From: Candidatus Amulumruptor caecigallinarius
Lineage (GTDB): Bacteria > Bacteroidota > Bacteroidia > Bacteroidales > Muribaculaceae
DNA length: 34,783 bases
Reading direction: 5' to 3'
Assembly: GCA_023665575.1 (NCBI GenBank)
Contig: JAMPDQ010000018.1
Span: forward strand, 1 to 34,783
Shown: piece by piece, positions 2,441 through 34,098 of the stretch
How positions within the stretch are numbered: position 1 is the stretch's first letter
Layout: every line of letters starts with the position of its first letter
Made by a program: the position numbers and the translations under genes
The notes under the pieces: model-generated
Database searches by the model: none
What the model was told of the DNA's origin: nothing
Seen by the model: only the letters and a program-made list of their open reading frames with translations

Positions 2441-2589
2441 AGGCTCCGTTTCATAAAAAATTAACATCATGTGACGCATACACAGTAGATTTTGACTCTT
2501 TGAATCAGTCACATAGCTCGCTAAGCTCTCTAAGTTCTCTAAGCTCATGCATCCGACCCCTAATGTTAAATTTTTTATGAAACGAGGCC
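2441..2589. repeat. Palindromic MITE-like element, copy 1 (short form)
   Basis: The left end reads AGGCTCCGTTTCATAAAAAA and the right end is its near-perfect inverse (TTTTTTATGAAACGAGGCC). The next bases inside, ATTAACAT and ATGTTAAAT, continue the inverted repeat. The interior carries the family core GAATCAGTCACATAGC but its other half is diverged. TTA flanks both ends (2438-2440 and 2590-2592), consistent with a target duplication. There is no open reading frame, so it would be non-autonomous. Confidence 0.7.
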
Positions 2590-2642
2590 TTATTGTCGCT
2601 ATCCTTTCATATATTGGGCGGGAAATGTGTTGCTTAAATTTT

Positions 2643-2673
2643 TTTGAAAATCAGTTAAATTTGGTTAACTTTG
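2643..2673 (+). promoter_or_regulatory. Promoter of the serine palmitoyltransferase gene
   Basis: TTTG (2643-2646), a 19-base spacer and TAACTTTG (2666-2673) match the Bacteroidota -33/-7 consensus exactly. The leader to the start codon would be about 70 bases. Confidence 0.8.
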
Positions 2674-2694
2674 TAATCTGATTTGACGCGAATG

Positions 2695-2714
2695 CATTTG
2701 CGGCATCGCAAATG
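2695..2714 (+). other. Small leader hairpin before the serine palmitoyltransferase gene
   Basis: CATTTGCG-GCAT-CGCAAATG forms a perfect 8-bp stem with a 4-base loop, early in the predicted 5' leader. It could protect the transcript or affect translation; no known RNA family is recognised. Confidence 0.5.
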
Positions 2715-2746
2715 ATTGATTCTCAATTCGCATTTAACTAAATTAT

Positions 2747-3946
2747 ATGAAGCCCCTACAACAAAAATTATCGGCTTACGACGCTCCCCAAAAGGCTATG
2801 GCTGCCGGCGTCTATCCTTATTTTAGAGCTATATCGAGCGAACAAGACACCGAAGTGGTCATTAATGGCAAAAAAGTCCTCATGTTCGGCTCCAACAGCT
2901 ACATGGGCCTTACAAACCATCCAAAAGTGATTGAGGCTGCTGTTGAGGCTACAAAAAAATACGGCACCGGTCTGGCCGGTTCCCCTTTCCTTAATGGCAC
3001 TCTCACAATCCACAAGGAGTTGGAAGCTCGTCTTGCCGATTATGTCGGCAAGGAGGATGCCATGCTTTACAGCACCGGATTCGGAGTGAATCTCGGCGTT
3101 GTCTCAGTGCTGACCGGACGTGAGGATTATGTGATTCTCGATGAGCAGGATCATGCATCAATCATTGAAGGCCGACGTCTCTCTTTCTCCAACTATCTAA
3201 AATATCGCCACAACGATATGGAGTCGCTCGAGGCGCAGTTGAAGAAGTGTGATCCCGATAGGGTGAAGCTTATTGTCACGGACGGCGTCTTTTCAATGGA
3301 GGGTGATGTGGCAAACCTGCCTGAAATCATTCGCCTCGCCAAGCAATATAATGCTTCTGTGATGGTGGATGAGGCTCATGGACTCGGCGTGTTTGGCGAA
3401 GGGGGAAGAGGCACATGCTTCCATTTCGGAGTGCAGGATGATGTGGACCTTATTATGGGCACTTTCAGCAAGTCGCTCGCCTCGCTAGGAGGATTTGTTG
3501 CGGCCGACAAGGTTGTCACCAATTTCCTGCGTCATCATTCCCGCTCCTATATCTTCACAGCTTCTATCACTCCAGCATCTACAGCAGCCGTAAATGCCGC
3601 CCTCGATATCATTATCGCTGAGCCTGAGCGCCGCCGGAACTTGTGGGATCTCACTCATTATGCGCTCGACAATTTCCGCGCAATGGGATGTGAAATAGGC
3701 AACACTTCCACACCTATTATCCCGCTTTTCATACGCGATGATTACAAGACCTTCCATGTGGTGCGCGATCTCCTTGATGAAGGTGTGTTTGTAAATCCCG
3801 TGGTTACTCCCGCCGTGGCTCCACATGACACGCTTATCAGATATTCGCTGATGGCCACACACACAAAGGAGCAGGTGGCACGCTCGCTCGAGGCTATTGA
3901 GAAGGTGTTTAAAAAATATGATTTGCTCCATAAGGCTGCAAATTAG
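2747..3946 (+). CDS. spt: Serine palmitoyltransferase-type PLP enzyme (alpha-oxoamine synthase family)
   Basis: This enzyme condenses an amino acid with an acyl-CoA using pyridoxal phosphate. In Bacteroidales this 399-residue form is usually serine palmitoyltransferase, which joins L-serine and a fatty acyl-CoA to give 3-ketosphinganine, the first step of sphingolipid synthesis. Visible motifs are GTGLAGSPFLNG (residues 74-85), DHAS with the PLP-stacking histidine at about 136, VDEAHGLG (207-214, the Asp that holds the pyridine nitrogen) and GTFSKSLASLGG with Schiff-base Lys242. The start is fixed by a perfect promoter about 75 bases upstream. The family also includes 2-amino-3-ketobutyrate CoA ligase (Kbl) and 8-amino-7-oxononanoate synthase (BioF). 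Absence of a tdh or bio neighbour and the close N-terminal match to Bacteroides enzymes favour Spt, but Kbl is not formally excluded. Confidence 0.85.
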   Translation: MKPLQQKLSAYDAPQKAMAAGVYPYFRAISSEQDTEVVINGKKVLMFGSNSYMGLTNHPKVIEAAVEATKKYGTGLAGSPFLNGTLTIHKELEARLADYVGKEDAMLYSTGFGVNLGVVSVLTGREDYVILDEQDHASIIEGRRLSFSNYLKYRHNDMESLEAQLKKCDPDRVKLIVTDGVFSMEGDVANLPEIIRLAKQYNASVMVDEAHGLGVFGEGGRGTCFHFGVQDDVDLIMGTFSKSLASLGGFVAADKVVTNFLRHHSRSYIFTASITPASTAAVNAALDIIIAEPERRRNLWDLTHYALDNFRAMGCEIGNTSTPIIPLFIRDDYKTFHVVRDLLDEGVFVNPVVTPAVAPHDTLIRYSLMATHTKEQVARSLEAIEKVFKKYDLLHKAAN

Positions 3947-4139
3947 GAGCTCGGCTAATAACCCCGTAAACCAAAAATTATCTGCTTGCAAGCTTGTCAT
4001 CTCTTATATGTGGTGACTTGCTCATATGTAGTGACATATTCAAGTTGCCATGTTTAAGCAATATGGAAACTTGAAAGTTAAGTGGTAGGGAAGTCGGGCA
4101 GAGCAACCCTCGAAAATTTACAATGTGACTGAGCGCAAT

Positions 4140-4174
4140 AATCCGGCATTTCATCTTCAATATCCGGATTTTTT
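4140..4174 (+). terminator. Possible terminator of the PLP-enzyme transcript
   Basis: AATCCGG (4140-4146) pairs with CCGGATT (4164-4170), followed by TTTT. The 17-base loop is large and the position, about 195 bases after the stop, is distant, so this is a moderate call. Confidence 0.45.
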
Positions 4175-4296
4175 GCGACTTGCAATATATAAAAAGTCGA
4201 ATTGGCAAGCCTGTTTGGTTGATGTGTAATAAAACTTGATTTAATAAAGTTTGGAGATATAATAAAAGTGAGTTAAATTCGCATTGTTTTTTGAAC

Positions 4297-4317
4297 AACA
4301 CCCCACCGGGGGGTGTT
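4297..4317 (+). other. Leader hairpin before the pRiA4b-like gene
   Basis: AACACCCC (4297-4304) pairs with GGGGTGTT (4310-4317), with a 5-base loop, 41 bases before the start codon. It could be an attenuator-like or translation-affecting structure, or the end of the upstream transcript; only ATTTG follows, which is a poor T-run. Confidence 0.45.
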
Positions 4318-4358
4318 ATTTGTGAAGTTTCTTAGTAAAGTTTCTTACCCAATTTAAA

Positions 4359-4907
4359 ATGGTATATAGGTTTAAACTTGTCAGCGATGAGGTGAGCAAC
4401 TTCAGCCGCGAAATTGAAATTGATTCAGAGAATACCTTTCTCCAGTTGCGCAATGCCATTCTGGAATCTGTCAATTATACAAAAGACGAACTTGACTCTT
4501 TTTTCCTTTGCAACGAGGAGTGGCAACGCCAGGAGGAGATTACTCTTGAAGATATGGGCACATCGGCAAGCGACTGCGATGTGTGGCTAATGGAAAATAC
4601 CCCGATTCGTGAGCTTATAGAAGATGAAGGACAAAAGCTCGTGTTCGTGTTTGATTATCTCACCGACAGATCCTTCTTCATTGAGTTGAGGGAGATGATT
4701 CCCGGTAGGTCGCTTGTTGAGCCCGTGTGCACAATGAAGCGTGGCAAAGCTCCCGAACAGAGTGTCGATCTCGATGAATTTGACAAAAAAATCGATGCTT
4801 CAGCTGCTGCCGCCTCTATTGAGGATATCGATCTCGAAGCTTTCGACAACAGCACATTCGACGATGAGGAGCTGTCTGAAGGTTTCGACATTATGAATAT
4901 AAATTGA
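4359..4907 (+). CDS. Plasmid pRiA4b ORF-3-like family protein
   Basis: The product has 182 residues. The opening MVYRFKLVSDEV..F.REIEID, the segment LRNAILESVNYTKDELDSFF, the tract VWLMENTPIRELI and the segment LVFVFDYLTDRSFFIEL are the layout of the pRiA4b ORF-3 / IS1096-passenger-like family (Pfam PF07929), in its Bacteroidota form. The biochemical role of this family is not established. The last 50 residues are strongly acidic (DLDEFDKKID, EDIDLEAFD, DDEELSEGFD) and low in complexity, which suggests a flexible protein- or metal-binding tail. The gene is monocistronic, preceded by a structured leader and closed by a strong hairpin 20 bases after its stop. Despite the family name there is no sign of plasmid or IS origin here; it looks like a core chromosomal gene. 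Confidence 0.8.
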   Translation: MVYRFKLVSDEVSNFSREIEIDSENTFLQLRNAILESVNYTKDELDSFFLCNEEWQRQEEITLEDMGTSASDCDVWLMENTPIRELIEDEGQKLVFVFDYLTDRSFFIELREMIPGRSLVEPVCTMKRGKAPEQSVDLDEFDKKIDASAAAASIEDIDLEAFDNSTFDDEELSEGFDIMNIN

Positions 4908-4926
4908 CATAACGAAACGCAACCCG

Positions 4927-4967
4927 GCACAAGGCCCCATGAGTAATGCTCTCATGGGGCCTTGTGC
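4927..4967 (+). terminator. Strong hairpin after the pRiA4b-like gene
   Basis: A perfect 17-bp stem, GCACAAGGCCCCATGAG (4927-4943) with its inverse at 4951-4967, and a 7-base loop lie 20 bases after the stop codon. There is no T-run, so termination may need other factors, but the stem is very stable. Confidence 0.7.
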
Positions 4968-4997
4968 TGTGACGCACTTTAATGTAATGTTTGCTTA

Positions 4998-5049
4998 GAC
5001 TCAATTCCCCAAAAATTATTAAAGCAGAGGACGCAAATTTTTAGGGAAT
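4998..5049. repeat. Short hairpin repeat, copy near 5,000
   Basis: ATTCCCCAAAAATT (5004-5017) pairs with AATTTTTAGGGAAT (5036-5049) with a single mismatch. Similar sequence occurs at 20636-20680 (hairpin) and, as single arms, at about 2414-2440 and 5570-5600. It is a short dispersed intergenic repeat placed between the pRiA4b-like gene and the convergent hypothetical gene. Confidence 0.55.
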
Positions 5050-5055
5050 GGATCC

Positions 5056-5397
5056 TCAGGCTTTACCAAATATCTTATCCCAAAGCGAGGTCTTCTTTTC
5101 AGGACGCATGTGCACTGACACAGTGTCGCTCTTTTTGCTTAGAAAAAGAATGTGCGATTTGAAAACAATTGCCACATATTTGTCGAATTCAAGAATTCCG
5201 TAAATGCCACGTTTCAGAAATCGCTTGAATGGATTGAATTCCTCCTCATTGCCTATGATGATTTCATCGTCTGATTCCTCTATTTGATGAAATGGTCGTA
5301 GCATTTCAATGAAGTAGGGCACATTTAGTTCTTGAAGGTCGTGAGGCGGCTTTTTGTATTTGCTATAAATCTCTTGTATTACTTCCTCGGTTATCAT
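5056..5397 (-). CDS. Conserved hypothetical protein
   Basis: I do not recognise a named family. The protein is 113 residues from MITEEVIQEIY, has no signal peptide or membrane segment, and is soluble with an acidic middle (EESDDEIIIGNEEEF) and a basic C-terminus ending SLWDKIFGKA. I chose the ATG at 5395-5397 because the upstream 19 residues (from 5454) look like translated intergenic sequence; a longer form from 5454 is possible. The frame is intact with the codon use of its neighbours. A candidate -7 box lies at 5516-5523, so the transcript would carry a 110-base leader with the shorter form. It is convergent with the pRiA4b-like gene. Confidence 0.65.
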   Translation of the reverse strand: MITEEVIQEIYSKYKKPPHDLQELNVPYFIEMLRPFHQIEESDDEIIIGNEEEFNPFKRFLKRGIYGILEFDKYVAIVFKSHILFLSKKSDTVSVHMRPEKKTSLWDKIFGKA

Positions 5398-5515
5398 GTA
5401 TGCGGATTCTAAGTGCGATGCGTGAATGCGTGACACCGGGTGAATGCATTGCACACCGCTTTATTATATAACTCTTCAGCTCTCTGAATTGTTCTGTTAG
5501 AAGATAAATATGTTG

Positions 5516-5523
5516 CAAAAATA
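5516..5523 (-). promoter_or_regulatory. Candidate -7 element for the hypothetical gene
   Basis: On the minus strand this reads TATTTTTG, a match to TAnnTTTG. No TTTG box is seen at the expected upstream distance, so the call is tentative. Confidence 0.35.
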
Positions 5524-5602
5524 ATAAAATTAATATTAAAAACGGCGGAGTCATAAAAAAATTTGTTTAGGCTCCATTCCACAATAACTGACGGGGGAGC
5601 TT

Positions 5603-5652
5603 AAAAAAAACATGCGGCAAGAGCTTTTTAAGTCTCTCGCCGCATGTTTTTT
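5603..5652 (-). terminator. Bidirectional terminator closing the decarboxylase operon
   Basis: A 17-bp stem, 5607-5623 with 5634-5650 (AAAACATGCGGCAAGAG and its inverse, one G-T pair), is flanked by an A-run on the left and T-run on the right. Read on the minus strand it gives a stem followed by eight T residues, a classic intrinsic terminator. It lies about 180 bases beyond oadB, with the palindromic element copy 2 inserted between. Confidence 0.8.
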
Positions 5653-5670
5653 AGCATTGCCTGCTTCCTA

Positions 5671-5828
5671 GAGTCTGTTTCATAAAAAATTCAACATTAG
5701 GGGTTGCATGCTTGAAATGAGTTTAACTCTGCCAAATCAGAAACATAGCTGGATAAGTAATTGATTAAAAGAGTCAAACATGGCCATGCATGTAACCCCC
5801 AATGTTGAATTTTTTATAAGACAGACTC
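5671..5828. repeat. Palindromic MITE-like element, copy 2 (short form)
   Basis: The left end is GAGTCTGTTTCATAAAAAAT and the right end ATTTTTTATAAGACAGACTC. Just inside, TCAACATTAGGGGTTGCATG pairs with CATGTAACCCCCAATGTTGA. The core keeps the family inverted repeat (AATCAGAAACATAGC and its partner half, diverged), so the whole 158 bp can fold into one long hairpin. The right end abuts the stop codon of oadB (5829-5831, TAA on the minus strand); the left flank is CTA. Confidence 0.8.
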
Positions 5829-6998
5829 TTAGCCTAGAAAGCTTAGAAGCACACCGGCTGCTACTGCCGAGCCTATGACGCCCGCAACATTCGGACCCAT
5901 GGCATGCATGAGCAGATAGTTGGTGGGATCATATTCCAATCCAAGATTGTTGGATATGCGAGCCGCCATTGGCACCGCAGACACACCTGCGTTGCCGATA
6001 AGCGGATTAATCCTCTTGTTGGGCTTAAGCAAAAGATTGAATATCTTCACTGACAGCACTCCCGCACTTGAAGCTATGACGAATGCCACGAAACCCAGGC
6101 CAAAAATCAAGAGTGTGTCTATCGTGAGAAATTTGCTCGCCTGTGTGGAGGCGCCTACTGTCAGACCAAGAAGTATGGTGATGATATCGGTCATTGAATT
6201 GCTGGCTGTTTTGGCCAAGCGGGTGGTGACACCACTTTCCCGGAGAAGATTCCCAAAGAAAAGCATCCCAAGCAACGGAATGCCCGAAGGCACCACAAAG
6301 CAGGTGAGCAGAAGTCCTACAACAGGAAACACTATCTTCTCATTCTGGCTCACCACGCGTGCAGGTTTCATCTTGATAAGACGTTCCTCTTTGGTGGTGA
6401 ACAATCGCATGAGAGGCGGCTGAATAAGCGGAATTAGTGCCATGTAGGAATAAGCCGACACAGCAACTGCTCCCAGCAAGTCGGGATTCAGCTTGGATGT
6501 GGTGAAGATCGCAGTCGGGCCGTCTGCACCGCCGATAATTGCAACGCATCCGGCAGAAAGGGGATCGAATCCGCAAAGCAACGCCAGCATATAAGCACCG
6601 AATATGCCAAATTGAGCGCATGCTCCGATTATCATTAGTTTTGGATTGGCAAGCAAGGCCGAAAAATCGGTCATTGCCCCGATTCCCAAAAAGATGAGTG
6701 GGGGGTACCATCCGCGCTCCACACCATTATAAAGGATATTGAGCACTGAGCCCTCCTCATAGATTCCTATCTCCATGCCGGGTTGGAAAGGTATGTTGCC
6801 TATAAGCATACCGAAGCCTATGGGAACAAGCAGCAAGGGCTCAAAATTTTTCTTGATTGCCAGCCACACAAAAAATATGCCCACAGCCAGCATCACCAGG
6901 TTCTGCCATTCGCAATTGTAGAAACCGGTAAATTTCCAAAATGAGGCTATGGTCTCTGCCATGAAGCCTCCAAAAGAGTAGTCGCTTAATAATAACAT
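5829..6998 (-). CDS. oadB: Na+-translocating methylmalonyl-CoA decarboxylase, beta subunit
   Basis: This integral-membrane subunit removes CO2 from carboxybiotin and uses the free energy to export Na+. It is 389 residues long, normal for OadB/MmdB/GcdB, with about ten hydrophobic segments. The signature IIGGADGPTAIF (154-164) carries the ion-binding Asp159, and GNAGVSAVPMAARISN near the C-terminus is the second re-entrant signature. It is the last gene of the five-gene operon, 20 bases after the biotin carrier. The N-terminal 12 residues may be surplus: an internal Met at residue 13 could also serve as start. The stop codon lies exactly at the border of a palindromic repeat. The name oadB is used for the family; substrate specificity comes from the mmdA neighbour. 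Confidence 0.93.
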   Translation of the reverse strand: MLLLSDYSFGGFMAETIASFWKFTGFYNCEWQNLVMLAVGIFFVWLAIKKNFEPLLLVPIGFGMLIGNIPFQPGMEIGIYEEGSVLNILYNGVERGWYPPLIFLGIGAMTDFSALLANPKLMIIGACAQFGIFGAYMLALLCGFDPLSAGCVAIIGGADGPTAIFTTSKLNPDLLGAVAVSAYSYMALIPLIQPPLMRLFTTKEERLIKMKPARVVSQNEKIVFPVVGLLLTCFVVPSGIPLLGMLFFGNLLRESGVTTRLAKTASNSMTDIITILLGLTVGASTQASKFLTIDTLLIFGLGFVAFVIASSAGVLSVKIFNLLLKPNKRINPLIGNAGVSAVPMAARISNNLGLEYDPTNYLLMHAMGPNVAGVIGSAVAAGVLLSFLG

Positions 6999-7018
6999 GT
7001 CAGTTGGTTATCAGATTC

Positions 7019-7474
7019 TTATTCTATAATCATTATATCCGTGCCTTCAAGGATTGCATCGCCCACGGATACCAGAATCTGCTTAACCGTACCTCCTGTT
7101 GTTGTGCGGATATCATTTTCCATTTTCATGGCCTCAAGCACACCGACCTTGTCACCGGCGTTCACCTTGTCGCCGACTTTCACATCAATGCTCATCACTG
7201 TGCCCGGCAGAGGGCTCTTCACAGCTGATGCCGCTCCCGCCGGTGCTGCCGGCTTCACGGGTTTCTTTTCAGATGCAGATGCCGCTGCCGATTTGGCTGT
7301 GATTCCCGGATTGGTGTGTCCGCTCTGGCTCAACGCCGGCTTCTGGGGCGCCTTGCGGTCGAGTTCCACCTTGTAGGGCACACCATTCACCTCCACATGT
7401 GCCTCATTATCTACTATGTCGCCTACCGATACGGTAAACTTCATTCCGTTGATTTTGTATTTATATTCTTTCAT
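7019..7474 (-). CDS. Biotin carboxyl carrier protein of the decarboxylase (gamma/delta-type)
   Basis: This small carrier holds the biotin that shuttles the carboxyl group from the MmdA subunit to the membrane beta subunit. It has 151 residues: an N-terminal domain of about 40 residues (MKEYKYKINGMKFTVSVGDI), an Ala/Pro/Lys-rich flexible linker at about 41-85, and a biotinyl domain at about 86-151 with the motif EAMKMEN, in which Lys117 is the biotinylation site. The swinging-arm layout is standard. It lies 19 bases after the OadG-like gene and 20 bases before oadB, so translation is probably coordinated. A biotin protein ligase is not in the window. Confidence 0.93.
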   Translation of the reverse strand: MKEYKYKINGMKFTVSVGDIVDNEAHVEVNGVPYKVELDRKAPQKPALSQSGHTNPGITAKSAAASASEKKPVKPAAPAGAASAVKSPLPGTVMSIDVKVGDKVNAGDKVGVLEAMKMENDIRTTTGGTVKQILVSVGDAILEGTDIMIIE

Positions 7475-7493
7475 TGTTTCTTTGTTTCGTGAG

Positions 7494-8102
7494 TTATTTT
7501 AAATGACGGCGCGTGGTGCTTGCTGCTGTGTGCTCCGGAATCACGCGCATGTTGTAAATTTTTGAATTCCACGGTGAATACGCCTTGCGCATCCTGCGGA
7601 TAGTCAGAATTGTGTCCTCCATGTCGTGGCCCTGACCCATATGTTCAGCAAGAGCCATGCTGATGGCTGCAATCACTTCGCCCGAGTCAAGCTCGTCATG
7701 ATGGTCTTCTGCCTCATCGGCATTTACACCGTGTGCCTCACGCTTTTTGTTTTTCTGAACTTTCGATGAAATTTTGCCAAATCCAAGGAAGAGAATACTC
7801 AATATTATCAATGCTGCAAGCACAATGCACATCGCTATTATTGTGATTGCACCTCCAAATCTGTCGTTTTCTGCAGCATTCTTTGCCTTTTCCGCTTGAA
7901 TGGCCTTGCGCGTCATCTCGCTTTCCTGCACTGTGTTCACCTCGTCGCTCGGAGTCCAGTCGCCTTCTACATTGGTCTGGTCGCCTTGTTGTGACACCTC
8001 GGTATATTCTTGTGCCGGATTGCACGCCGCTGCCGCGGAAGTCGGAACTCCCGCAAGCAGGGCTATGCAAAGCGTCGCGCTCAAAATATGTTTTTTCACC
8101 AT
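7494..8102 (-). CDS. OadG-like membrane anchor subunit with signal peptide
   Basis: In this position Na+-decarboxylase operons encode the small OadG subunit that anchors the soluble subunits to OadB. The protein has 202 residues, longer than the 80-100 of classical OadG. It begins with a signal-peptide-like segment (MVKKHILSATLCIALLAGV..AAA), followed by an acidic extracytoplasmic stretch of about 60 residues and one membrane helix at about 86-112 (ITIIAMCIVLAALIILSILF). The cytoplasmic part is acidic and His-rich (EAEDHHDELDSGEVIAAISMAL), then basic (MRKAYSPWNSKIYNMRV). The DSGEVIAAISMAL segment is the part best conserved in Bacteroidota OadG-like proteins. It sits 21 bases after mmdA. The function is inferred mainly from operon position and topology. 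Confidence 0.8.
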   Translation of the reverse strand: MVKKHILSATLCIALLAGVPTSAAAACNPAQEYTEVSQQGDQTNVEGDWTPSDEVNTVQESEMTRKAIQAEKAKNAAENDRFGGAITIIAMCIVLAALIILSILFLGFGKISSKVQKNKKREAHGVNADEAEDHHDELDSGEVIAAISMALAEHMGQGHDMEDTILTIRRMRKAYSPWNSKIYNMRVIPEHTAASTTRRHLK

Positions 8103-8123
8103 TTTGAGTTGATATGTTTTTGT

Positions 8124-10486: not shown

Positions 10487-10789
10487 ATGGAAAAATTTGA
10501 AGATTTGATTAAAACCGACAAGCCATTGCTTGTGGATTTCTTTGCTACCTGGTGCGGACCCTGCAAAATGATGCATCCTATTCTCGAAGATCTCGCAGCC
10601 AAAGTTGGCGACAAGGCACGAATTATTAAAATAGATATCGATAAGAATGAGCAACTCGCATCTATTTATAATGTCCGCTCCGTGCCTACTCTGATGATAT
10701 TCCGGGATGGCGAGCTCAAATGGCGCGCTTCGGGAGTGCACCAGTCTGACCAACTTGAAAGCGAACTCGAAAAATATTATGTTTCTTAG
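10487..10789 (+). CDS. trxA: Thioredoxin
   Basis: This is a small cytosolic dithiol-disulfide oxidoreductase, reduced by thioredoxin reductase. It has 100 residues with the active site WCGPCK (Cys23 and Cys26) and the cis-proline loop RSVPTL (Pro67). The overall pattern (LLVDFFATWCGPCKMMHPIL and IDKNEQLASIYNVRSVPTLMIF) is typical. There is no signal peptide, so the cytosol is the expected location. It is transcribed alone and ends in TAG. The last two bases of that stop form the first bases of a divergent palindromic repeat, and a clear intrinsic terminator follows at 10974. Confidence 0.95.
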   Translation: MEKFEDLIKTDKPLLVDFFATWCGPCKMMHPILEDLAAKVGDKARIIKIDIDKNEQLASIYNVRSVPTLMIFRDGELKWRASGVHQSDQLESELEKYYVS

Positions 10790-10945
10790 TCTCCATTTCA
10801 TAAAATTTCAAGGCTTGGGAGGCGCATCCCCTGGTTCTCTTTGTGTTTTGGTTCAGTTACATATACAGCTATGTTCACTCATCACTTCGCATAGTCAGCG
10901 ATCCCAAAACCTCCCTCGCTGTCTGAAATTTTATGAAACAGGACT
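10788..10945. repeat. Palindromic MITE-like element, copy 3 (divergent)
   Basis: Inverted ends are AGTCTCCATTTCATAAAATT on the left and AATTTTATGAAACAGGACT on the right. Inside, GGCTTGGGAGG.. pairs with ..CCTCCC, but the rest differs from other copies, so it is a divergent subfamily member. It starts inside the trxA stop codon and lies before the trxA terminator. Confidence 0.6.
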
Positions 10946-12489: not shown

Positions 12490-12640
12490 GAGTCTGTTTC
12501 ATAAAAAATTTAACATTAGGGGTCGCTTGCATGAGCCGGGTTTGGCTCCGAAGCAGGAGTGTAGTGGGATATGTGACTGATTCATAGGGATAAAATCGGC
12601 AGTGTATGCGAGGCCAATAGTAATTTAAATATAAACAGGC
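12490..12640. repeat. Palindromic MITE-like element, copy 4 (truncated)
   Basis: The left end GAGTCTGTTTCATAAAAAAT is perfect, followed by AACATTAGGGGTCG, the core (GTGACTGATTC) and the beginning of the long-form block (CCAATAGTAATTTAAATATA). The similarity stops at about 12640 and the right inverted end is missing, just before the lutB stop at 12654. It lies inside the lut operon. Confidence 0.75.
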
Positions 12641-20635: not shown

Positions 20636-20680
20636 AAGGCCCCATTCCCCAAAAATTGCAAAGTAGGGGAATGAAGCCTA
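20636..20680. repeat. Short hairpin repeat, copy near 20,650
   Basis: AGGCCCCATTCCCC (20637-20650) pairs with GGGGAATGAAGCCT (20666-20679) with two mismatches. It shares the sequence CCATTCCCCAAAAATT with the repeat at 4998-5049 and lies in the convergent gap between the AraC gene and lon. Confidence 0.55.
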
Positions 20681-23214: not shown

Positions 23215-23937
23215 ATGATTGATAGGGGATATTTCAGATTCAAGAAGTTCAATTGCCGTCATTTGTCAAGCTCAATGAAAGTAGGTGTAGACGCGGTGCT
23301 TTTGGCATCGTGGGCGGATATCAGGCAATGTCGGAAGGTGCTTGATGTCGGTACCGGCTGTGGAGTTATTGCTCTCATTTGCGCTCAGCGTTGCCCGGAT
23401 GTTCATGTTGATGCCATTGATGTGCATATTCCTTCTGTTGGGGAGGCTCAATTGAATTTTAATAATTCGCCGTGGGGCGGACGGCTTGATGCATTTGTTG
23501 CAGATTTCAATTCATTTTCCGGGTCCGGTTATGATTTGATTATCTCGAATCCCCCCTTTTTCAACTCGGGAATAATAAATCCGTCCGGTGAGAGAATGAT
23601 TGCGCGTCATCAGGATTCGCTTTCTCCTACATCTCTCCTTTCCGGCGGGAAGCGTTTGCTGAATCCGGGCGGCTCAATCGCAATGATTTTTCCGGCCGAC
23701 CAATTGGATACAGTTGTTGATGAGGCTGGAGGCCATGGCTTTTTTCTCGGCAGATACATGAAAATCAGGGGAAATCCAAATGCAAAAGTGAAGAGGGTTT
23801 TAACTCAGTTTTATGCCGGTGAGGACGCTGAATTAATCGATGAAGGTGAGACTCAGATACTGGAGATAATGGATAATGAAGGCAACTATACCCCCGGATA
23901 TGTTGCGCTCGGAAAGGATCTGTACCTTAAATTTTAG
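23215..23937 (+). CDS. trmN6: tRNA1(Val) (adenine(37)-N6)-methyltransferase
   Basis: This enzyme methylates N6 of A37 in tRNA1(Val) with S-adenosylmethionine. The 240-residue protein opens with FRFKKFNCRHLSSSMKVGVDAVLLASW, the family signature. The SAM-binding motif is VLDVGTGCGVIAL (42-54) and the catalytic motif NPPF (112-115). I chose the ATG at 23215; the frame extends to a TTG at 23206. The stop codon TAG is completed by the first base of palindromic element copy 5: removing the element and one TTA restores a TAA stop in the same place, so the protein is unchanged by the insertion. It is divergent from lon. Confidence 0.93.
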   Translation: MIDRGYFRFKKFNCRHLSSSMKVGVDAVLLASWADIRQCRKVLDVGTGCGVIALICAQRCPDVHVDAIDVHIPSVGEAQLNFNNSPWGGRLDAFVADFNSFSGSGYDLIISNPPFFNSGIINPSGERMIARHQDSLSPTSLLSGGKRLLNPGGSIAMIFPADQLDTVVDEAGGHGFFLGRYMKIRGNPNAKVKRVLTQFYAGEDAELIDEGETQILEIMDNEGNYTPGYVALGKDLYLKF

Positions 23938-24132
23938 AATCTGTTTCATAAAAAATTTAACATTAGGAGTCGCATGCATAAGCCGAATTTGATTATGCAG
24001 AATCAGGAGTATACTGAGCTATATGACTGATTCAAAGAGTCGCCGTTCGTAACCTAAGGTTGCTCCCTCTGAGATTGAAAAATTATCTCATAAATAAGCC
24101 GACCTAATGTTGAATTTTTATGAAACAGACTC
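23937..24132. repeat. Palindromic MITE-like element, copy 5 (intermediate form)
   Basis: The ends GAATCTGTTTCATAAAAAAT and TTTTTATGAAACAGACTC are inverted repeats. The core GAATCAGGAGTATACTGAG.. and ..GACTGATTC is present. The right half has part of the long-form block (CCCTCTGAGATTGAAAAATT), so it looks like a long form with an internal deletion. TTA lies on both sides (23934-23936 and 24133-24135). Confidence 0.8.
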
Positions 24133-25489: not shown

Positions 25490-25800
25490 GAGTCTGTTTC
25501 ATAAGAAACTGAACATTAGGAGCGGCTTATTTTTGAGATAATTTATTCAATCTCAGAGGGAGCAACCTCCAACCTCCAACCTCCTTTCTTTTCGCAAGTT
25601 GCAAACTTGCGAAAGTTGAATAAATAAATTAATAATAAATCATATGTCTGTTTTAAATTTAAATTTTTATTGGCCTCTCATGCATGGCTGATTTTGACTT
25701 TTTGAATCAGTCACATTGCCCGCTATGTTTCTGATTCTTAAGAGTCAAACCCTACTCATGCATGCGACTTCTAATGTTAAATTTTTTATGAAACAGACTC
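25490..25800. repeat. Palindromic MITE-like element, copy 6 (long form, inverted)
   Basis: This 311-bp copy has the same sequence plan as copy 7 (33791-34098) but in reverse orientation. Ends are GAGTCTGTTTCATAAGAAAC and AAATTTTTTATGAAACAGACTC. It has TTA on both sides (25487-25489 and 25801-25803), the core palindrome at about 25691-25748, and a second hairpin TTCGCAAGTT-GCA-AACTTGCGAA at 25597-25619. Its right end stops 17 bases before the start codon of the beta-barrel protein. Confidence 0.85.
25701..25731 (+). promoter_or_regulatory. Promoter-like sequence inside element copy 6
   Basis: TTTG (25701-25704), a 19-base spacer and TATGTTTC (25724-25731) match the consensus except for the last base. 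It points at the beta-barrel gene, whose start is 86 bases further. It is formed by the core palindrome of the element, so the match may be fortuitous. Confidence 0.3.
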
Positions 25801-27524: not shown

Positions 27525-27574
27525 GCCGTCACCCGGCGATTATATAAAATGTAGCCTATAGGCTCCATAAACCA

Positions 27575-28720: not shown

Positions 28721-28767
28721 CAAAAGCCGACCCCATAGCCGCTATTTCTTTTGAGACGGGGCCTAAG
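28721..28767. repeat. Solo element-end repeat, copy B
   Basis: CAAAAGCC...CGCTATTTCTTTTGAGACGGGGCCTAAG is the partner of the stretch at 164-207. Both sit just beyond the 3' end of a minus-strand transcription unit (dnaK there, the ribosomal cluster here). Confidence 0.45.
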
Positions 28768-28773
28768 TATTCA

Positions 28774-28807
28774 AAAAAATCCGGTGAAATTTTTCACCGG
28801 ATTTTTT
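28774..28807. terminator. Bidirectional terminator of the ribosomal cluster
   Basis: A perfect 16-bp stem, AAAAAATCCGGTGAAA (28774-28789) with its inverse at 28792-28807, with A-run and T-run arms, works in both directions. It lies about 155 bases after DUF4295. The region 28808-28962 between shows no gene. Confidence 0.8.
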
Positions 28808-28962
28808 AATTTATCTGTAAATAAGCAGCTTCGAATAATAAATGAATAGATTAAATCAAATTGTTTTTGAATAGGTTTTGATACAGAATGTAGAGGTAGG
28901 CATGCATATGCCTCTGAATCACAAAGCAAATGCATTATTTATCGAGCTGCTTGGTTGGTTGC

Positions 28963-29112
28963 TTATTTAAGCGCGTCTTTCACTGCATCGTTGGGCACCA
29001 TTTCTTCTCTGAAAACATAAGCGCCTGTCTTGGGAGATTTCTCCATTACGATGATTTTGCTATATGTACGGCCTTCACCCTTCTGGATTGAAGCCACGGT
29101 TTTCTTTGCCAT
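28963..29112 (-). CDS. DUF4295 family protein
   Basis: This short gene encodes 49 residues starting MAKKTVASIQKGEGRTYSKI and ending VPNDAVKDALK, the Bacteroidota DUF4295 family. It is invariably found after rpmG and rpmB in this phylum and is probably ribosome-associated; its exact role is not established. The start is 10 bases after the rpmG stop. The protein is basic at the N-terminus, as small ribosomal proteins are. Confidence 0.9.
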   Translation of the reverse strand: MAKKTVASIQKGEGRTYSKIIVMEKSPKTGAYVFREEMVPNDAVKDALK

Positions 29113-29122
29113 TTTTCAGTGC

Positions 29123-29311
29123 TTATTTGATTTCTTTGTGAACTGTTACTTTCTTCAGGATCGGATTATATTTCTTGAGTTCCAGACGTCCCGGAGTGTT
29201 TTTGCGGTTCTTGGTAGTGATGTATCTTGACATACCGGGCATTCCGCTTGCCTTATGTTCTGTGCATTCGAGAATCACTTGAACGCGATTGCCTTTTGCT
29301 TTCTTTGCCAT
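29123..29311 (-). CDS. rpmG: 50S ribosomal protein L33
   Basis: This is a small large-subunit ribosomal protein of 62 residues. The family pattern is clear: [18 protein letters not shown], then [22 protein letters not shown] and a terminal TVHKEIK. It has a single Cys rather than the four zinc-binding cysteines of some L33 forms, so this is the zinc-independent (C-minus) type. It lies 13 bases after rpmB and 10 bases before DUF4295. Confidence 0.97.
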
Positions 29312-29324
29312 AACTTAATAGGAA

Positions 29325-29588
29325 TTATAAGGAGAGAATTTTAATATCCTTGAAATCGAGATTTCCCTCAGCCTCTGCTTTCTTTAACGCTGCGTTGAGA
29401 CCGATTTTATTGATTGTGCGGAGTGCGCGTGCTGATATGCGAAGCTGAATCCACATATCCTCTTCAACCCAATAGAATTTTTTTGTATGCAAGTTTACTT
29501 CAAACTTGCGCTTGGTGCGACGCTTTGAGTGTGATACATTATTGCCCACCTGCGCCTTTTTGCCTGTGATCTGACAAACTTTTGACAT
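29325..29588 (-). CDS. rpmB: 50S ribosomal protein L28
   Basis: This large-subunit ribosomal protein has 87 residues and starts [20 protein letters not shown], followed by the conserved [20 protein letters not shown] and [15 protein letters not shown]. It is the first gene of the rpmB-rpmG-DUF4295 cluster. The promoter at 29708-29739 leaves an unusually long leader of about 115 bases with a possible hairpin (29655-29679, TCGCTAAA with TTT-C-AGCGA), which might bind a ribosomal protein for feedback control. Confidence 0.97.
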
Positions 29589-29707
29589 GGCTGTTGTTAA
29601 TTTTCTTTTTAAAAATTTGCTTCAGTTTCTGACGCCATCTCAGTTCTCATATCATCGCTAAACGCATCATTTTCAGCGACTTTTAAGGATGTGTCACAAA
29701 ACATTTG

Positions 29708-29739
29708 CAAAATTACGATTTTTTTGCCAATTATACAAA
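29708..29739 (-). promoter_or_regulatory. Promoter of the rpmB-rpmG-DUF4295 cluster
   Basis: On the minus strand TTTG (29736-29739), a 20-base spacer and TAATTTTG (29708-29715) match the consensus exactly. The stretch 29740-29894 between this and the helicase promoter shows no gene. Confidence 0.8.
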
Positions 29740-29894
29740 CTTTCTCATCGTTTCTTTTCGCTTTTTTACGATTTTATTCATTCCCTTGCAGGCAAAATCC
29801 ACCTCTTTTGCTATTTTTACCTGTCGAGCCTCCTTTTCGAAGCACCTTTTCGAGACTTTATCGATGAGCCAGCTTCTGATTTTGTTTGAGGTTA

Positions 29895-29926
29895 TTTGGA
29901 GGTCTTCCTATAATCTATTAATTTTG
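29895..29926 (+). promoter_or_regulatory. Promoter of the DEAD-box helicase gene
   Basis: TTTG (29895-29898), a 20-base spacer and TAATTTTG (29919-29926) match the consensus exactly. The leader is about 85 bases, in the range seen for cold-responsive helicase genes, but no cold-box is recognised. Confidence 0.8.
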
Positions 29927-30016
29927 TGGTTGTGAAGCAAAGTTCCATAGAGCCGAGACACACATGCAGACTCTTGTCCGTTTATCCCCACTCCAAAATA
30001 TAGATTGCTTTTATAA

Positions 30017-31426
30017 ATGAGATTCGATGAAATTCTGACCAACGACGACGTGCTCGATGGTCTTTGGGATATGCATTTCGATGAGTGCACACCTGTGCAG
30101 GAACACACTATCCCCGCCGTTATGCAGAACCGCGACATCTTGGCGTGTGCCCAGACCGGCACCGGAAAAACCGCTGCTTATCTCCTTCCGGTGATTAATA
30201 AACTGGCCGATGGCGGATATCCCGATGATGCAGTAAATTGCATCGTTATGGCTCCTACCCGAGAACTCGCCCAGCAAATTGACCGACAATTGCAGGGATT
30301 CGCATATTTCATGCCTGTAAGCAGCATCGCTGTATATGGCGGCACTGACGGTTTCACTTATGAACAACAGCGCAAAAGCCTTAAGCTGGGCACTGATATC
30401 GTTATAGCCACGCCCGGCAGGCTGCTTGCTCACCTCAGCATGGGATATGTCGACCTCTCAAAGGTGTCGTTTTTTATCCTCGATGAGGCCGACAGAATGC
30501 TCGATATGGGCTTTTATGATGACATCATGCAGATATTTTCGCATCTCCCGAAAAATGTGCAAATCCTTATGTTTTCAGCCACTATGCCTGCTAACATCCG
30601 CAAAATGGCCGATAAAATACTTAAGAATCCCGTAGAAATTAAGCTCGCTGTGTCAAAACCGGCAGAAAAAATAGAACAATCCGCTTATATTTGTCATGAA
30701 ACACAGAAAATAAACCTGCTCAAGCATATTTTCAATGCCACTCCTCCTAAAAGAGTAATTATTTTCTCTTCTTCCAAGCTTAAAGTAAAAAATCTCTCTC
30801 GCGAACTCCGTAAAATGAAACTTCACCTGGGAGAGATGCATTCTGACCTTAATCAGCTGGAGCGGGATAATGTGATGCTTGATTTTAAATCCGGAAAAAT
30901 CAATGTGGTGGTTGCCACTGATATAATTTCGCGCGGAATAGATATCGATGACATTGAAATGGTGGTGAATTTCGATGTTCCGCGCGACCCGGAAGATTAT
31001 GTGCACCGCATCGGCAGAACTGCGCGCGCAAACCGCAACGGACGGGCGGTGACGTTCGTGGCCGAAGATGATTTTTCTCGTCTTGCCCGCATAGAGCGTC
31101 TCCTCGAAAAGGAAGTGCCGAAGGCTGATGTGCCCGCAGAGTTGGGTGAAGCTCCCCTTTATTATGCCAAAAGAAAACCTTGTGGCCGCAAAAAGCGTAA
31201 TAATACAAGTGGGAAACTTCTGCACCACAATAAACCATCTCTGAATGCAAATGAGTCTATGCAGTCGGATAAACCAGCAAAAAACGGTCGCAATGGAAAT
31301 CAGGAAAGAAACACGGGCAAATGGAAAAACCGGTCAAGAAAAAGAAATAGTAATCACGAAGATAACCGAAAATCAACCGAAAACCAACGGCAAAGAGATA
31401 GTCAGCTGCCCGGAAAACACAATTGA
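30017..31426 (+). CDS. DEAD-box ATP-dependent RNA helicase
   Basis: This enzyme unwinds RNA duplexes, probably in ribosome assembly or mRNA turnover. The 469 residues show all core motifs: Q motif (CTPVQEHTIPAV), Walker A AQTGTGKT (45-52), PTRELAQQ (80-87), ATPGR (131-135), DEAD (156-159), SAT (187-189), VATDIISRGIDI and HRIGRTAR (330-337). The last about 90 residues are a basic, Asn/Lys/Arg-rich tail (KPCGRKKRNNTSGK.., NGRNGNQERNTGKWKNRSRKRNS) as in RhlE-type helicases, likely an unstructured RNA-binding extension. That tail overlaps the first codons of the downstream UDG-like gene in another frame. Confidence 0.96.
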   Translation: MRFDEILTNDDVLDGLWDMHFDECTPVQEHTIPAVMQNRDILACAQTGTGKTAAYLLPVINKLADGGYPDDAVNCIVMAPTRELAQQIDRQLQGFAYFMPVSSIAVYGGTDGFTYEQQRKSLKLGTDIVIATPGRLLAHLSMGYVDLSKVSFFILDEADRMLDMGFYDDIMQIFSHLPKNVQILMFSATMPANIRKMADKILKNPVEIKLAVSKPAEKIEQSAYICHETQKINLLKHIFNATPPKRVIIFSSSKLKVKNLSRELRKMKLHLGEMHSDLNQLERDNVMLDFKSGKINVVVATDIISRGIDIDDIEMVVNFDVPRDPEDYVHRIGRTARANRNGRAVTFVAEDDFSRLARIERLLEKEVPKADVPAELGEAPLYYAKRKPCGRKKRNNTSGKLLHHNKPSLNANESMQSDKPAKNGRNGNQERNTGKWKNRSRKRNSNHEDNRKSTENQRQRDSQLPGKHN

Positions 31427-31991
31427 AACACATCCCTGGCCTCCATTTATACCTGATGGTGCGAAGGTGATGATTATGGGCACGTTTCCACCGGGAAGAC
31501 ACAGATGGAGCATGGATTTCTATTATCCCAATCGAACCAACGACTTTTGGTATGCAATGGGATTGATATTCTTCAACAATCGCTATGAATTCCTTCGCGA
31601 TGACCAAAAGTCTTTCAATGTAGATTCGATTATAAGCTTTCTAAATAATAAGAAAATAGCGCTTAATGATACAGCCGGAAAAGTGTGTCGCCTTAAAGGA
31701 AATGCTTCTGATAAATTTCTGCAAATTATAGAGCCTGCGCCTATTTTTGACCTGCTCGAGAGGATGCCCTCTTGCGTGGCTCTCGCCACCACCGGTGAAA
31801 AGGCTGCCGGAATAATCGCCCAACTCACTAACACCAAGATTCCTAAAATCGGATGCAGTGTGAAATTCGAAATTGGCTCGCGAGTGATTGAGATATGGCG
31901 TATGCCCTCTACAAGCCGTGCGTATCCTTTGGCTCTTGATAAAAAAGCCGGATTTTATGCAGAAATGTTCAGAAGCATCGGCATATTATAA
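31293..31991 (+). CDS. Uracil-DNA glycosylase superfamily protein
   Basis: The product belongs to the UDG fold superfamily (PF03167) of DNA-repair glycosylases. The N-terminal motif MGTFPPGRHRWSMDFYYPNRTNDFW is the family motif-A region, and MPSTSRAYPLALDKKAGFY near the C-terminus is the motif-B region. Activity on uracil cannot be asserted, since the strict GQDPYH motif of classical UDG is absent. With the ATG at 31293 the product has 232 residues but its first about 45 overlap the helicase tail. The conserved part begins at ETHPWPPFIP, and an ATT codon (31421-31423) overlaps the helicase stop TGA (31424-31426), so an ATT start with tight coupling is possible. The stop overlaps the converging EamA gene. 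Confidence 0.8.
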   Translation: MEIRKETRANGKTGQEKEIVITKITENQPKTNGKEIVSCPENTIETHPWPPFIPDGAKVMIMGTFPPGRHRWSMDFYYPNRTNDFWYAMGLIFFNNRYEFLRDDQKSFNVDSIISFLNNKKIALNDTAGKVCRLKGNASDKFLQIIEPAPIFDLLERMPSCVALATTGEKAAGIIAQLTNTKIPKIGCSVKFEIGSRVIEIWRMPSTSRAYPLALDKKAGFYAEMFRSIGIL

Positions 31992-32921
31992 TTTGCGACG
32001 CATAGGTCCATCGGGAAATTTATCAGAATATACAAGTCCCCCTATAATCAGCACGCAACCAACGTAGCCCAGCATATAGATGTTTTCGCCAAGAAAGAAG
32101 TAGGCGGTTATCATCGTGACCAATGGCTGCAAATATAAATAATTGTTGGTGCTCACCGGCCCAAGAATTCTCATCACTTCATTCCATATAAGATATGCCA
32201 TAAGCGAACACATCACCACAAGAAACACAAAGTTCATCAGGTAATGAATGTTCTGAAAATCCATCAATATATTAAAATGACTCGGATTCTTGTCCATGAT
32301 AAGCAATGGAATCGCAGTCAGCACGCCATAAAAGAACAGCTTACGTGTCACAAAAAATCCACTGTAGAGCGGCAATATTCTCTTGATAGCCACCGTATAT
32401 ACTGCCCATGATAATGCCGCCGCTATCGCCAGCAAATCGCCCGCAGGCTTTATCTCCAGACTGTCACCATGACTGAATATTATGCATCCCGCCCCGATAA
32501 ATGCCACTAATGAACCTGTCACTATGCCGGCCTTGAGCTTTTGTTTGTAAAGCGCCGCAACAAGCAAGGTGGTGAAAATAGGGGAGAGCGATGCCAAAAG
32601 TGACACATTTCCCGTGGTGGTGAGTGTCAAAGCATAATTCTCTGTGATAAAATAGAGCGAACCCGAGCATATGCCGCACAACGCAAGTGTCATCTCATCA
32701 CGCCATGACTTGGATAAAATGTTCTTGAATGTGAACATCAGCAACAATAAGTAAGCTGCGGAAAACCTGTACACAAACATTTCGATGGGAGTGAACCCTC
32801 CATCGTTCATTAAAATCTTTGTGCTTAGAAAAGATGAGCCCCATGCCGCCACCGTGACGAAGGCGCCGATATGTGCAAGTATTTTGGTTGTGTTCTTGCG
32901 AGATGAAATTCCGAAATTCAT
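31986..32921 (-). CDS. EamA/DMT-family transporter
   Basis: This is an inner-membrane transporter of the drug/metabolite family, 311 residues with about ten hydrophobic segments and two EamA repeats. The first covers about residues 10-145 (VTVAAWGSSFLSTKILMNDGGFTPIEMFVYRF) and the second about 155-300 (LAIAAALSWAVYTVAIKR.. and VFLVVMCSLMAYLIWNEVMRILGPV). Such proteins export amino acids, purines or toxic compounds; the substrate cannot be told. It has its own strong promoter and converges on the UDG-like gene with a 6-base overlap: TTATAA at 31986-31991 encodes Leu-stop on both strands, with no terminator hairpin between. Confidence 0.9.
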   Translation of the reverse strand: MNFGISSRKNTTKILAHIGAFVTVAAWGSSFLSTKILMNDGGFTPIEMFVYRFSAAYLLLLMFTFKNILSKSWRDEMTLALCGICSGSLYFITENYALTLTTTGNVSLLASLSPIFTTLLVAALYKQKLKAGIVTGSLVAFIGAGCIIFSHGDSLEIKPAGDLLAIAAALSWAVYTVAIKRILPLYSGFFVTRKLFFYGVLTAIPLLIMDKNPSHFNILMDFQNIHYLMNFVFLVVMCSLMAYLIWNEVMRILGPVSTNNYLYLQPLVTMITAYFFLGENIYMLGYVGCVLIIGGLVYSDKFPDGPMRRKL

Positions 32922-32973
32922 GGTAGTTAGATTCTATGTATCCTCCTTCATCCATCCTTGGAATGCTTTCCCA

Positions 32974-33004
32974 CAAAATTAAAAAAAAATCTCATTATCG
33001 CAAA
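32974..33004 (-). promoter_or_regulatory. Promoter of the EamA transporter gene
   Basis: On the minus strand TTTG (33001-33004), a 19-base spacer and TAATTTTG (32974-32981) match the consensus exactly. The leader is about 50 bases. The -33 box abuts the terminator of the upstream gene. Confidence 0.8.
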
Positions 33005-33011
33005 AAATGAA

Positions 33012-33047
33012 AAATGCAGCTACCTCTTTTAAGAAGTAGCCACATTT
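33012..33047 (-). terminator. Terminator of the Cys-rich protein gene
   Basis: GCTACCTCTT (33019-33028) pairs with AAGAAGTAGC (33031-33040), with one mismatch, and AAATG/CATTT extend the stem. On the minus strand the stem is followed by TTTTTCATTTTTT, an intrinsic terminator 37 bases after the stop. Confidence 0.75.
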
Positions 33048-33083
33048 GAAATTGCTTTACTGATTGTTACTTATGATTGTTAC

Positions 33084-33761
33084 TTATTTCTTTTTTGATG
33101 CTTTAAGATTCGCGTCAGGCTTGTTTGCGCATGCTGAAGCATCCTTGCATTTACGATCTATCTTGGCTTTCCCATGCTTGCCGGATCTGTCTTTCTTAAA
33201 ATCGGATTTGCCTGATTTCATTCCATGTTTACCCCCGATTTTCGACCCTGAATTATTTACATAGTTGTTCTCAAGAAACTGAATGTACTGATCTGAGGTG
33301 AGAATCTCGCGAAGTCCCTTCAGATAATTCGTTTTCAATTCTTTAATCCCTTTTTTGAATTTGAAAGTGGTGTCTTTGTTTTCACGGGCTGTCCCGGCTT
33401 TCTGCATGAACTCTGTTTTTGCCTTGCGGTTTTCACTGCCAAGAGTCTTTATCTTCGATTTTTGATCCTCTGAGAGATTAAGATTGGCAAACGGATTGGA
33501 TTTGCACGATTTATCTTTACGGTTTGCCTTATGTTTGGGTGTGGTAGTGCAATCCTTTACACACGGTTCATCGCAATTCTGCTGAGGAGCCACGCATACG
33601 TTGCATTGCGGGTTGCACTGATAATCGGCGGGACATGTGCATGGATTGCACAATTCATTCGAGCACGTCGCTTCGTTGTTGTTGACAGCGGATTTATTCT
33701 GTGCAAAACTTGCCAAAGGGGTTATGGCACAAAAAAGTGCGATACTAATAAATTTCTTCAT
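33084..33761 (-). CDS. Cys-rich periplasmic protein with Spy/CpxP-like segment
   Basis: The 225-residue product, from MKKFISIALFCAITPLASFAQ, has a signal peptide, so it is exported. Residues about 32-72 contain ten cysteines in short spacings (CNPCTC, CNPQCNVC, CDEPCVKDC), a pattern that could bind metal or form a disulfide knot. Residues about 88-165 show two LTxxQ-like motifs (LNLSEDQKSKIKTL and ILTSDQYIQFLENN) with a helical linker, like Spy/CpxP periplasmic chaperones. The C-terminal 55 residues are Lys/Gly/His-rich and strongly basic. I chose the inner Met at 33759-33761 because the longer frame from 33803 begins within a palindromic element. The combination is not one I can name; a metal- or envelope-stress role is inference. 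Confidence 0.75.
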   Translation of the reverse strand: MKKFISIALFCAITPLASFAQNKSAVNNNEATCSNELCNPCTCPADYQCNPQCNVCVAPQQNCDEPCVKDCTTTPKHKANRKDKSCKSNPFANLNLSEDQKSKIKTLGSENRKAKTEFMQKAGTARENKDTTFKFKKGIKELKTNYLKGLREILTSDQYIQFLENNYVNNSGSKIGGKHGMKSGKSDFKKDRSGKHGKAKIDRKCKDASACANKPDANLKASKKK

Positions 33762-33790
33762 TTTATTTAAGTGTTTTGTATTATGTTTTT

Positions 33791-34098
33791 GAGTCTGTAT
33801 CATAAAAAATCAACATCAGGGGTCGAATGCATGAGGGGTTTAGCCCTGCAGAATCAGGAATATGGCGGGCTATGTGACTGTTTCAAAAAGTAAACCCCGG
33901 CCATGCGTGCAAGGTCAATAGTAATTTAAATATAAAACAGACATATGATTTATTGTTAATTTATTTATTCAACTCTGACAAGTTTGCAACTTGTGAAAAG
34001 CGGAGAGGGTAGAAGTTGGAAGTTGCTTCCTCTGAGATTGAATAAATTATCTTAAAAATAAGCCGCCTCTAATGTTGAATTTTTTATGAAACAGACTC
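33791..34098. repeat. Palindromic MITE-like element, copy 7 (long form)
   Basis: This 308-bp copy is the other complete long form. Ends are GAGTCTGTATCATAAAAAAT and ATTTTTTATGAAACAGACTC. It contains the core palindrome (GGGGTTTAGCCCTGCAGAAT.. with ..TCAAAAAGTAAACCCC), the A+T-rich block CCAATAGTAATTTAAATATA, a second hairpin with ACAAGTT-TGC-AACTTGT, and TTGAATAAATT pairing with AATTTATTTATTCAA. The right flank is TTA, the left TTT. It sits 30 bases upstream of the Cys-rich gene, in its promoter region. Confidence 0.85.

Follow-up and report, generated by a model that had tools for sequence, protein, structure and literature searches.

Palindromic repeats of a Candidatus Amulumruptor genome as probable miniature derivatives of IS5-family insertion sequences with a conserved hairpin domain

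Introduction

Among the questions raised by a stretch of 34,783 nucleotides from Candidatus Amulumruptor caecigallinarius (contig JAMPDQ010000018.1 of assembly GCA_023665575.1; hereafter the window), one relates to seven palindromic, gene-less repeats scattered along it: are they transposons or structural repeats kept by the host, and what does the palindrome stand for? Our computational analysis indicates that they are very probably miniature inverted-repeat transposable elements (MITEs), internal-deletion derivatives of IS5-family insertion sequences (ISs), in which the palindrome is a conserved domain that seems to be under selection for its single-stranded fold. Descriptions of MITEs usually give them inverted ends with filler in between. 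The new part here is the palindrome as a hairpin domain of about 95 nt, placed just inside each inverted end of about 33 bp.

Copy number and size classes in the genome

The genome of the window (G000; 1,886,071 bases in 56 contigs, 94% complete) contains 198 occurrences (100 + 98) of the 17-base tip CTGTTTCATAAAAAATT with at most 2 mismatches, and 202 (99 + 103) of a 21-base tip with at most 3, while the reversed patterns gave none in either search. A covariance model of the hairpin domain (R1, described below) found at least 124 domains among the 150 of 616 candidates that were scored. These counts exclude that the window copies are the only ones, and support about a hundred or more elements in the genome; the high copy number of the original prediction thus stands, with its “hundreds” brought down to that figure.

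Ends and pairs were surveyed in 379,761 bases of G000 (about 20%, window included), which hold 162 ends and 39 adjacent facing pairs. Eight pairs measure 148-169 bp, 11 measure 308-363 bp, four 507-516 bp, and the other 16 fall elsewhere within 63-644 bp, so the size classes proposed earlier are real, though not clean. Each hairpin domain begins just inside the inverted repeat. We read the form of about 340 bp, with a left-type and a right-type hairpin, as full length, the 150-160 bp copies as a one-hairpin form, and the 308- and 311-bp copies as a two-hairpin form with one hairpin split by an unrelated repeat. Among 160 tip segments (two were left out as too short for hairpin classing), 48 carry left and 62 right domains; the 50 fitting neither class, or solo tips, are left uninterpreted because the tip search itself selects for tips. 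The left-hairpin interruption recurs at the same place in C55:720-1016 and C6:17830-18070, and in a longer form in C14:26866-27400, so that this chimeric form either spread or arose repeatedly.

Probable parent insertion sequences and deletion intermediates

A profile search with PF13586 across 101 genomes of the genus gave 21 places in 14 genomes. At three loci of sister species, L166 (1291 bp), L170 (1269 bp) and L156 (1203 bp), the transposase gene (263-273 codons, stop to stop) lies between long inverted ends and the same hairpins, which the model search recovers as two inward-facing domains in each. The three proteins exceed the cut-off of the IS5-family model NF033580. Across 26 loci searched with the model, domains occur at both ends of L156, L166, L170 and L176 (from the record named uncultured Bacteroidales RUG14134, and apparently a named copy of L170), and at one end of L163, whose contig stops short of the second end, and of the G000 remnant L172. 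In L165 the domain is located outside the ends of its IS. No domain at E<=0.01 was found in the other 19 loci, including the second G000 remnant, L171 (in C33); a further record, L175, is named as an uncultured Porphyromonadaceae metagenome-assembled genome.

Deletion intermediates are also present: L182 (670 bp) and L186 (644 bp) retain both domains and a fragment of the transposase. Fragments of a transposase lie in G000 itself at C6:557-873 and C33:65414-65639; they adjoin ends of the form GGCCCCGTTTC[AG]TAAAAAA, and of three transposases compared, that of L163 is the closest to them (65-84% identity by segment). The C6 remnant starts with GGCCCCGTTTCATAAAAAA, shares GTTTCATAAAAAA with the MITE tip, and compares with an L163 start of GGCCCCGTCTCATAAAAAAT. 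A search of G000 with the L166 protein returned broken fragments only, and PF13586 returned nothing at E<=0.001. With only decayed transposase fragments of this type found in the genome, which is 94% complete, the MITE family is probably no longer moving there.

Two candidate parents in G000 were rejected. PF01609 found a single gene, that of an intact-looking DDE_Tnp_1 element in the first ~1.25 kb of C42, close to a MITE end at C42:1513; the ends of this element, which we take to be IS4-like, are TACATGACAAAAATT and unrelated to the MITE tips. The second candidate, a pair of tips separated by 1519 bp (C53:51829-53347), turned out to belong to two distinct elements on either side of a kbl-like gene. 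A scan of viral contigs for the exact tip gave no match, and an IS5 transposase locus of a Bacteroides fragilis plasmid (37% identical) contained no domain.

Target site and insertion positions

The three bases outside 114 close ends are T in 99, A or T in 103 and A in 100. Identical 3-bp flanks occur in 16 of the 39 facing pairs (shuffle mean 10.9, p 0.03), and where both sides are TTA or TAA (20 pairs), 16 are identical and four are not. With moderate support, the MITE target is TWA, duplicated as a 3-bp TTA or TAA; one IS5 subgroup uses a 3-bp TNA target. These duplications bear out the MITE-like behaviour first proposed, as do the full-length IS5-family elements with a matching layout in sister species and the intermediates with transposase fragments, and MITE identity with IS5-type parents is well supported.

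Ends also overlap stop codons: 14 of 136 do so, against 148 of 7186 noncoding TWA positions, counting both orientations, open frames of at least 100 codons, ends at E<=0.001 with at least 330 bases outside, and the two ends of one element apart. When a TAA/TTA target is duplicated, the inserted element does not destroy the stop codon, and this bias also follows from such a target. Around the copy at 5671 of the window, the syntenic oadB spacer of six other species has no domain, and its best tip shows at least 7 mismatches in 21; the nearest counterpart of the oadB region aligns with it at 77% identity over 1.65 kb, too distant for a formal empty site.

A hairpin domain with a preferred strand

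The 16 representative domains (including two consensuses drawn up by eye) all have a similar fold, and in each the strand read inward from the end is more stable than its complement; a truncated C44 variant shares the core of the fold only. In fourteen of these domains, picked for having the core motif, all 112 cells of the 8-pair core are paired, and two-sided changes number 31 versus 11.8 after shuffling. The covariance model R1, built from these fourteen, matched 74 times across 42 loci; five of the matches are weak and fall on the complement of places already found. The 70 distinct rows among these matches have 93.0% of core cells paired (65.0% shuffled) and 195 two-sided changes (68.5 shuffled) spread over 9 of 10 pairs, and partners slid by 1-3 columns pair in at most 44.5%; because this alignment follows the model and draws on related rows, the shuffled value cannot be read as a probability, and it is the effect size and the slide control that count.

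The two strands were compared in 66 of the 74 matches (three L101 rows repeating L185 and the five weak complement-strand matches were left out), reduced to 49 without near-duplicates and N-bearing sequences. The motif strand is the more stable one in all 49, and outside the core it bears 99 G.U pairs against 34 on the complement (more in 35 domains, fewer in 5, equal in 9), figures drawn from related rows and not from independent events, with a model that itself picks the motif strand and, for G.U, in a region holding only two model pairs. In all 20 facing domain pairs the motif strand is the inward strand; in L196, two adjacent domains share a strand. The apical stem is bordered by tandem G.A, with G in 65 and A in 63 of the 70 rows on the 5′ side, and G in 63 and A in 64 on the 3′ side. 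Across 21 motif-bearing ends, the distance from the tip to the start of the core is 64-70 nt, save for one end that holds a second tip, where it is 99 nt. The 21 ends keeping the strict core motif among the 162 surveyed in G000 compare with 0.2 after shuffling and 3 on the complement.

Covariation, the G.U excess and the conserved mismatch together support selection of the hairpin domain as a folded single strand, whether RNA or single-stranded DNA. The alternative of structural repeats, raised together with the MITE reading in the original prediction, was half right: the self-complementarity is a conserved fold, but this fold is also part of the parent IS. Rfam searches returned only transfer-messenger RNA (tmRNA) for the whole window at the gathering threshold, and only sub-threshold, chance-like matches at an E-value threshold for 501 bases and eight loci. 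No credible Rfam match and no open-access paper containing the end strings came up, in line with the original remark that no described family was known, and in the open-access literature no paper was recognisable as describing these features.

Spread across genomes

The scan of the genome and its relatives proposed with the original prediction was run with R1. At E<=0.001, at least 81 of 101 genus genomes have the domain, with 42 candidates scored per genome and several genomes reaching that number. Among 198 genomes of the order (21 candidates scored each), at least 7 have matches: besides G000, these are G239, from the same family, with 19, G091 with 7, G278 with 3, G266 with 2, and G181 and G208 with one weak match each. 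The tip sequences, in turn, differ widely between species. The MITE tip is common in only 1 of 73 genomes, while the domain is in 81 of the 101 of the genus; searched in 119 other genomes, the 21-base tip matched in 31, 30 of which have 1-2 matches, like the reversed control (0-1 per genome). G027, of the same genus, has 12 tip matches, nine of them GAGTCCATTTCATAAAAAATT or one base off.

The seven copies of the window

The seven stretches of the window are all related and gene-less, as first described, and searches with PF01609, PF13586 and the L166 protein match no transposase there; two of them are not complete clean copies, one being single-ended and another badly diverged. Two recognisable ends are present in six of the seven. 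The ends of 5671-5828, 23937-24132, 25490-25800 and 33791-34098 are GAGTCTGTTTCATAAAAAA, give or take a few bases, and those of 2441-2589 are the variant AGGCTCCGTTTCATAAAAAA.

The first four copies are given without strand. The one at 2441-2589 (149 bp) is a one-hairpin MITE with a partial model match at 2485-2534 (-) (E 0.011); its flanks are TTA/TTA if it starts at 2441 and TAA/TTA if at 2442, the start scored in the flank count. The one-hairpin MITE at 5671-5828 (158 bp; model domain 5705-5797; flanks CTA/TTA) is placed between the stop codon of an oadB-like gene (5829-6998, -) and a terminator-like hairpin. The badly diverged copy at 10788-10945, at the stop codon of a thioredoxin-like gene (10487-10789, +), has no structural-model match at E<=0.1. 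The truncated copy at 12490-12640 keeps the left end only and a right-type hairpin domain (12524-12611), its right side breaking off within the sequence that normally joins both halves.

The 196-bp copy at 23937-24132 (- strand; matches 23971-24061 (+) and 24015-24100 (-); flanks TTA/TTA) joins right-type and left-type halves, and is read as a deletion fusion of the two hairpins. Two-hairpin copies lie in opposite orientations at 25490-25800 (311 bp, +; matches 25524-25641 (+) and 25676-25766 (-); flanks TTA/TTA) and 33791-34098 (308 bp, -; matches 33822-33912 (+) and 33947-34064 (-); flanks TTT/TTA). The left-type hairpin of the former is split by a CAACCTCC / CGCAAGTTGCAAACTTGCG repeat, and that of the latter carries the same interruption.

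Several other observations touch these copies and their surroundings. The copies at 10788, 5828 and 23937 each lie at the stop codon of an adjacent open frame, and a tmRNA gene (Rfam RF00023) lies at 34342-34745, about 240 bp from the last repeat. The interrupting repeat is noncoding and unrelated to the MITEs, an AACCTC run plus the palindrome CGCAAGTTTGCAACTTGCG (window 25593-25611 and 33977-33995; also C22:130116-132246); it occurs at 27 places in the surveyed 379,761 bases, 18 of them within 250 bases of a tip, and several G000 contigs start or finish in it or in MITE elements. Tandem tip pairs with a spacing of 23 bp and TTA or TCA at the junction (C44:20443/20466, C33:29977/30000, C2:33050/33073), are perhaps excision footprints or repeated insertion. 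A second MITE family, with tips GGCTCCATTCCCCAAAAAAT (window 4998-5055, 5570-5589 and 20638-20657; 92 in G000, 43 + 49, reversed control 0), has a hairpin of the same kind, and its tips resemble the ends of the L166 and L170 ISs.

Discussion

The MITEs probably arose by internal loss from a parent made up of a 3-bp target copy, a terminal inverted repeat (TIR) of about 33 bp, a left hairpin of about 95 nt, the transposase gene, a right hairpin, a second TIR and a second target copy, the target copy being TTA or TAA in the MITEs. Loss of the transposase gene would leave the two-hairpin form of about 340 bp, and further loss of one hairpin the form of about 155 bp; a transposase supplied in trans would have moved both. 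In two-hairpin elements, the strand under selection would be the one read inward from each end.

Several results weigh against this account. No intact IS with the exact MITE tip was found, and the parent link lies in layout, domain and a related tip. The flanks differ in 23 of the 39 facing pairs, which keeps the support for target duplication moderate. In the 14-row test, two of the five measures did no better than shuffles (pairs changed, 6 versus 5.0; pair types, 11 versus 11.1). In G000 the strict core motif is kept by only 21 of the 162 ends, and G.U is not favoured over A.C in the left domain of the copies and weakly so in the right; that count, taken over 47 left domains (of 48) and 51 right ones (of 62), was judged uninformative, and the lack of bias on the left is what neutral decay of old copies predicts. 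Several sites hold copies whose left domain is interrupted. Among the 26 loci searched, most of the IS5-type ones, and the C33 remnant L171, lack the domain, which is thus not needed by all such transposases. No domain appeared in 20 of 101 genus genomes or in 191 of 198 order genomes, where a capped number of candidates was scored under strict filters.

Host-kept structural repeats, similar to REP/BIME or to mRNA-stabilising palindromes, would also form strong hairpins, and one copy does sit at a gene 3′ end beside a terminator-like hairpin. The excess of ends on stop codons points the same way, but it is also expected from a TAA/TTA target that restores the stop on duplication, and the defined inverted ends, the 3-bp target copies, the transposase-bearing parent IS and the deletion intermediates make a host origin very unlikely. 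It is also improbable, if somewhat less so, that the repeats are plain DNA palindromes without any folded-strand function, their pairing being kept by hairpin-templated repair or copying. Such self-correction gives paired changes too, and the outer-stem pairs are mostly Watson-Crick; it should, however, yield a perfect palindrome, and instead the G.A/G.A mismatch is conserved, G.U pairs are in excess on the motif strand, and this strand folds better in every domain compared.

If the domain is a folded single strand of a MITE derived from IS5-type parents, its role is a matter for more tentative proposals. The one that we favour, without great confidence, is that it folds as RNA when transcription of a neighbouring gene runs on into the element, and that it then shields the message of the transposase; read-through transcription into insertion sequences is an old theme. 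The better strand faces anything entering from outside at both ends, which fits this proposal. Next in likelihood, and also possible, is a cis-acting folded DNA signal for transposition: extruded from the duplex as a hairpin or cruciform, it would be bound by the transposase or needed in strand processing. In its favour are the near-fixed distance from tip to core, the existence of one-hairpin MITEs and, in two-hairpin elements, a polarity that is identical at either end, and the retention of the hairpin in MITEs without any gene, which carry no message to protect, fits a transposition signal better. Against it count the absence of the domain from most IS5-type loci searched, the G.U excess, more readily read as RNA, and the copies with interrupted left domains. 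The remaining probability falls to no function at all or to something else.

Similar arrangements are known from Bacteroidales and from Cardinium. The IS5-family element ISPg4 of Porphyromonas gingivalis has the TIR GAGACTGTTGCA (PMC4596501), which resembles GAGTCTGTTTCA. ISPg4 was compared by its TIR alone, and in our genus most IS5-type loci searched lack the hairpin domain. MITEs of P. gingivalis (MITEPgRS/MITE464 and BrickBuilt) likewise have ends like those of IS5-family elements and no transposase, but contain tandem repeats of 41 or 23 nt where ours have one or two conserved hairpin domains (PMC4596501). MITECca01 of Cardinium is an IS-derived MITE with 169 copies in one genome; its parent is an IS982, in contrast to the IS5-type parents here, and the passages on it mention no hairpin domain, the term “secondary structure” occurring 0 times in the text of the paper (PMC9769881).

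Outside these MITEs, the closest likenesses are of a different kind. The elements share with REP/BIME their palindromic nature and many copies, and differ in having inverted ends, a duplicated target and a parent of IS5 type. REP/BIME are palindromes of 20-40 bp tied to a Y1-type transposase, and our elements are longer. The noncoding RNAs of IS110/IS1111 (bridge RNA, seekRNA) offer another likeness, an IS with a structured noncoding part; here, the transposase is of the IS5/DDE type and the target is 3 bp, with no guide sequence in evidence.

Extending the proposal, both ends of a group of DDE-type ISs may encode a dedicated structured RNA or single-stranded DNA domain, with an apical hairpin and tandem G.A, that works in the life cycle of the element, bound by the transposase or sensing read-through, and that has spread through the genus and other Bacteroidales families under many tips; we consider this broader idea possible, and put it forward as speculation. 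What would be filler in a MITE is here a conserved, covarying fold, common to parent and derivatives, found in most sampled species of the genus and without an Rfam family. With these elements, many of the noncoding repeats of the genomes concerned find an explanation, and the question whether simple DDE insertion sequences make use of structured RNA or of folded DNA can be put to a sharp test.

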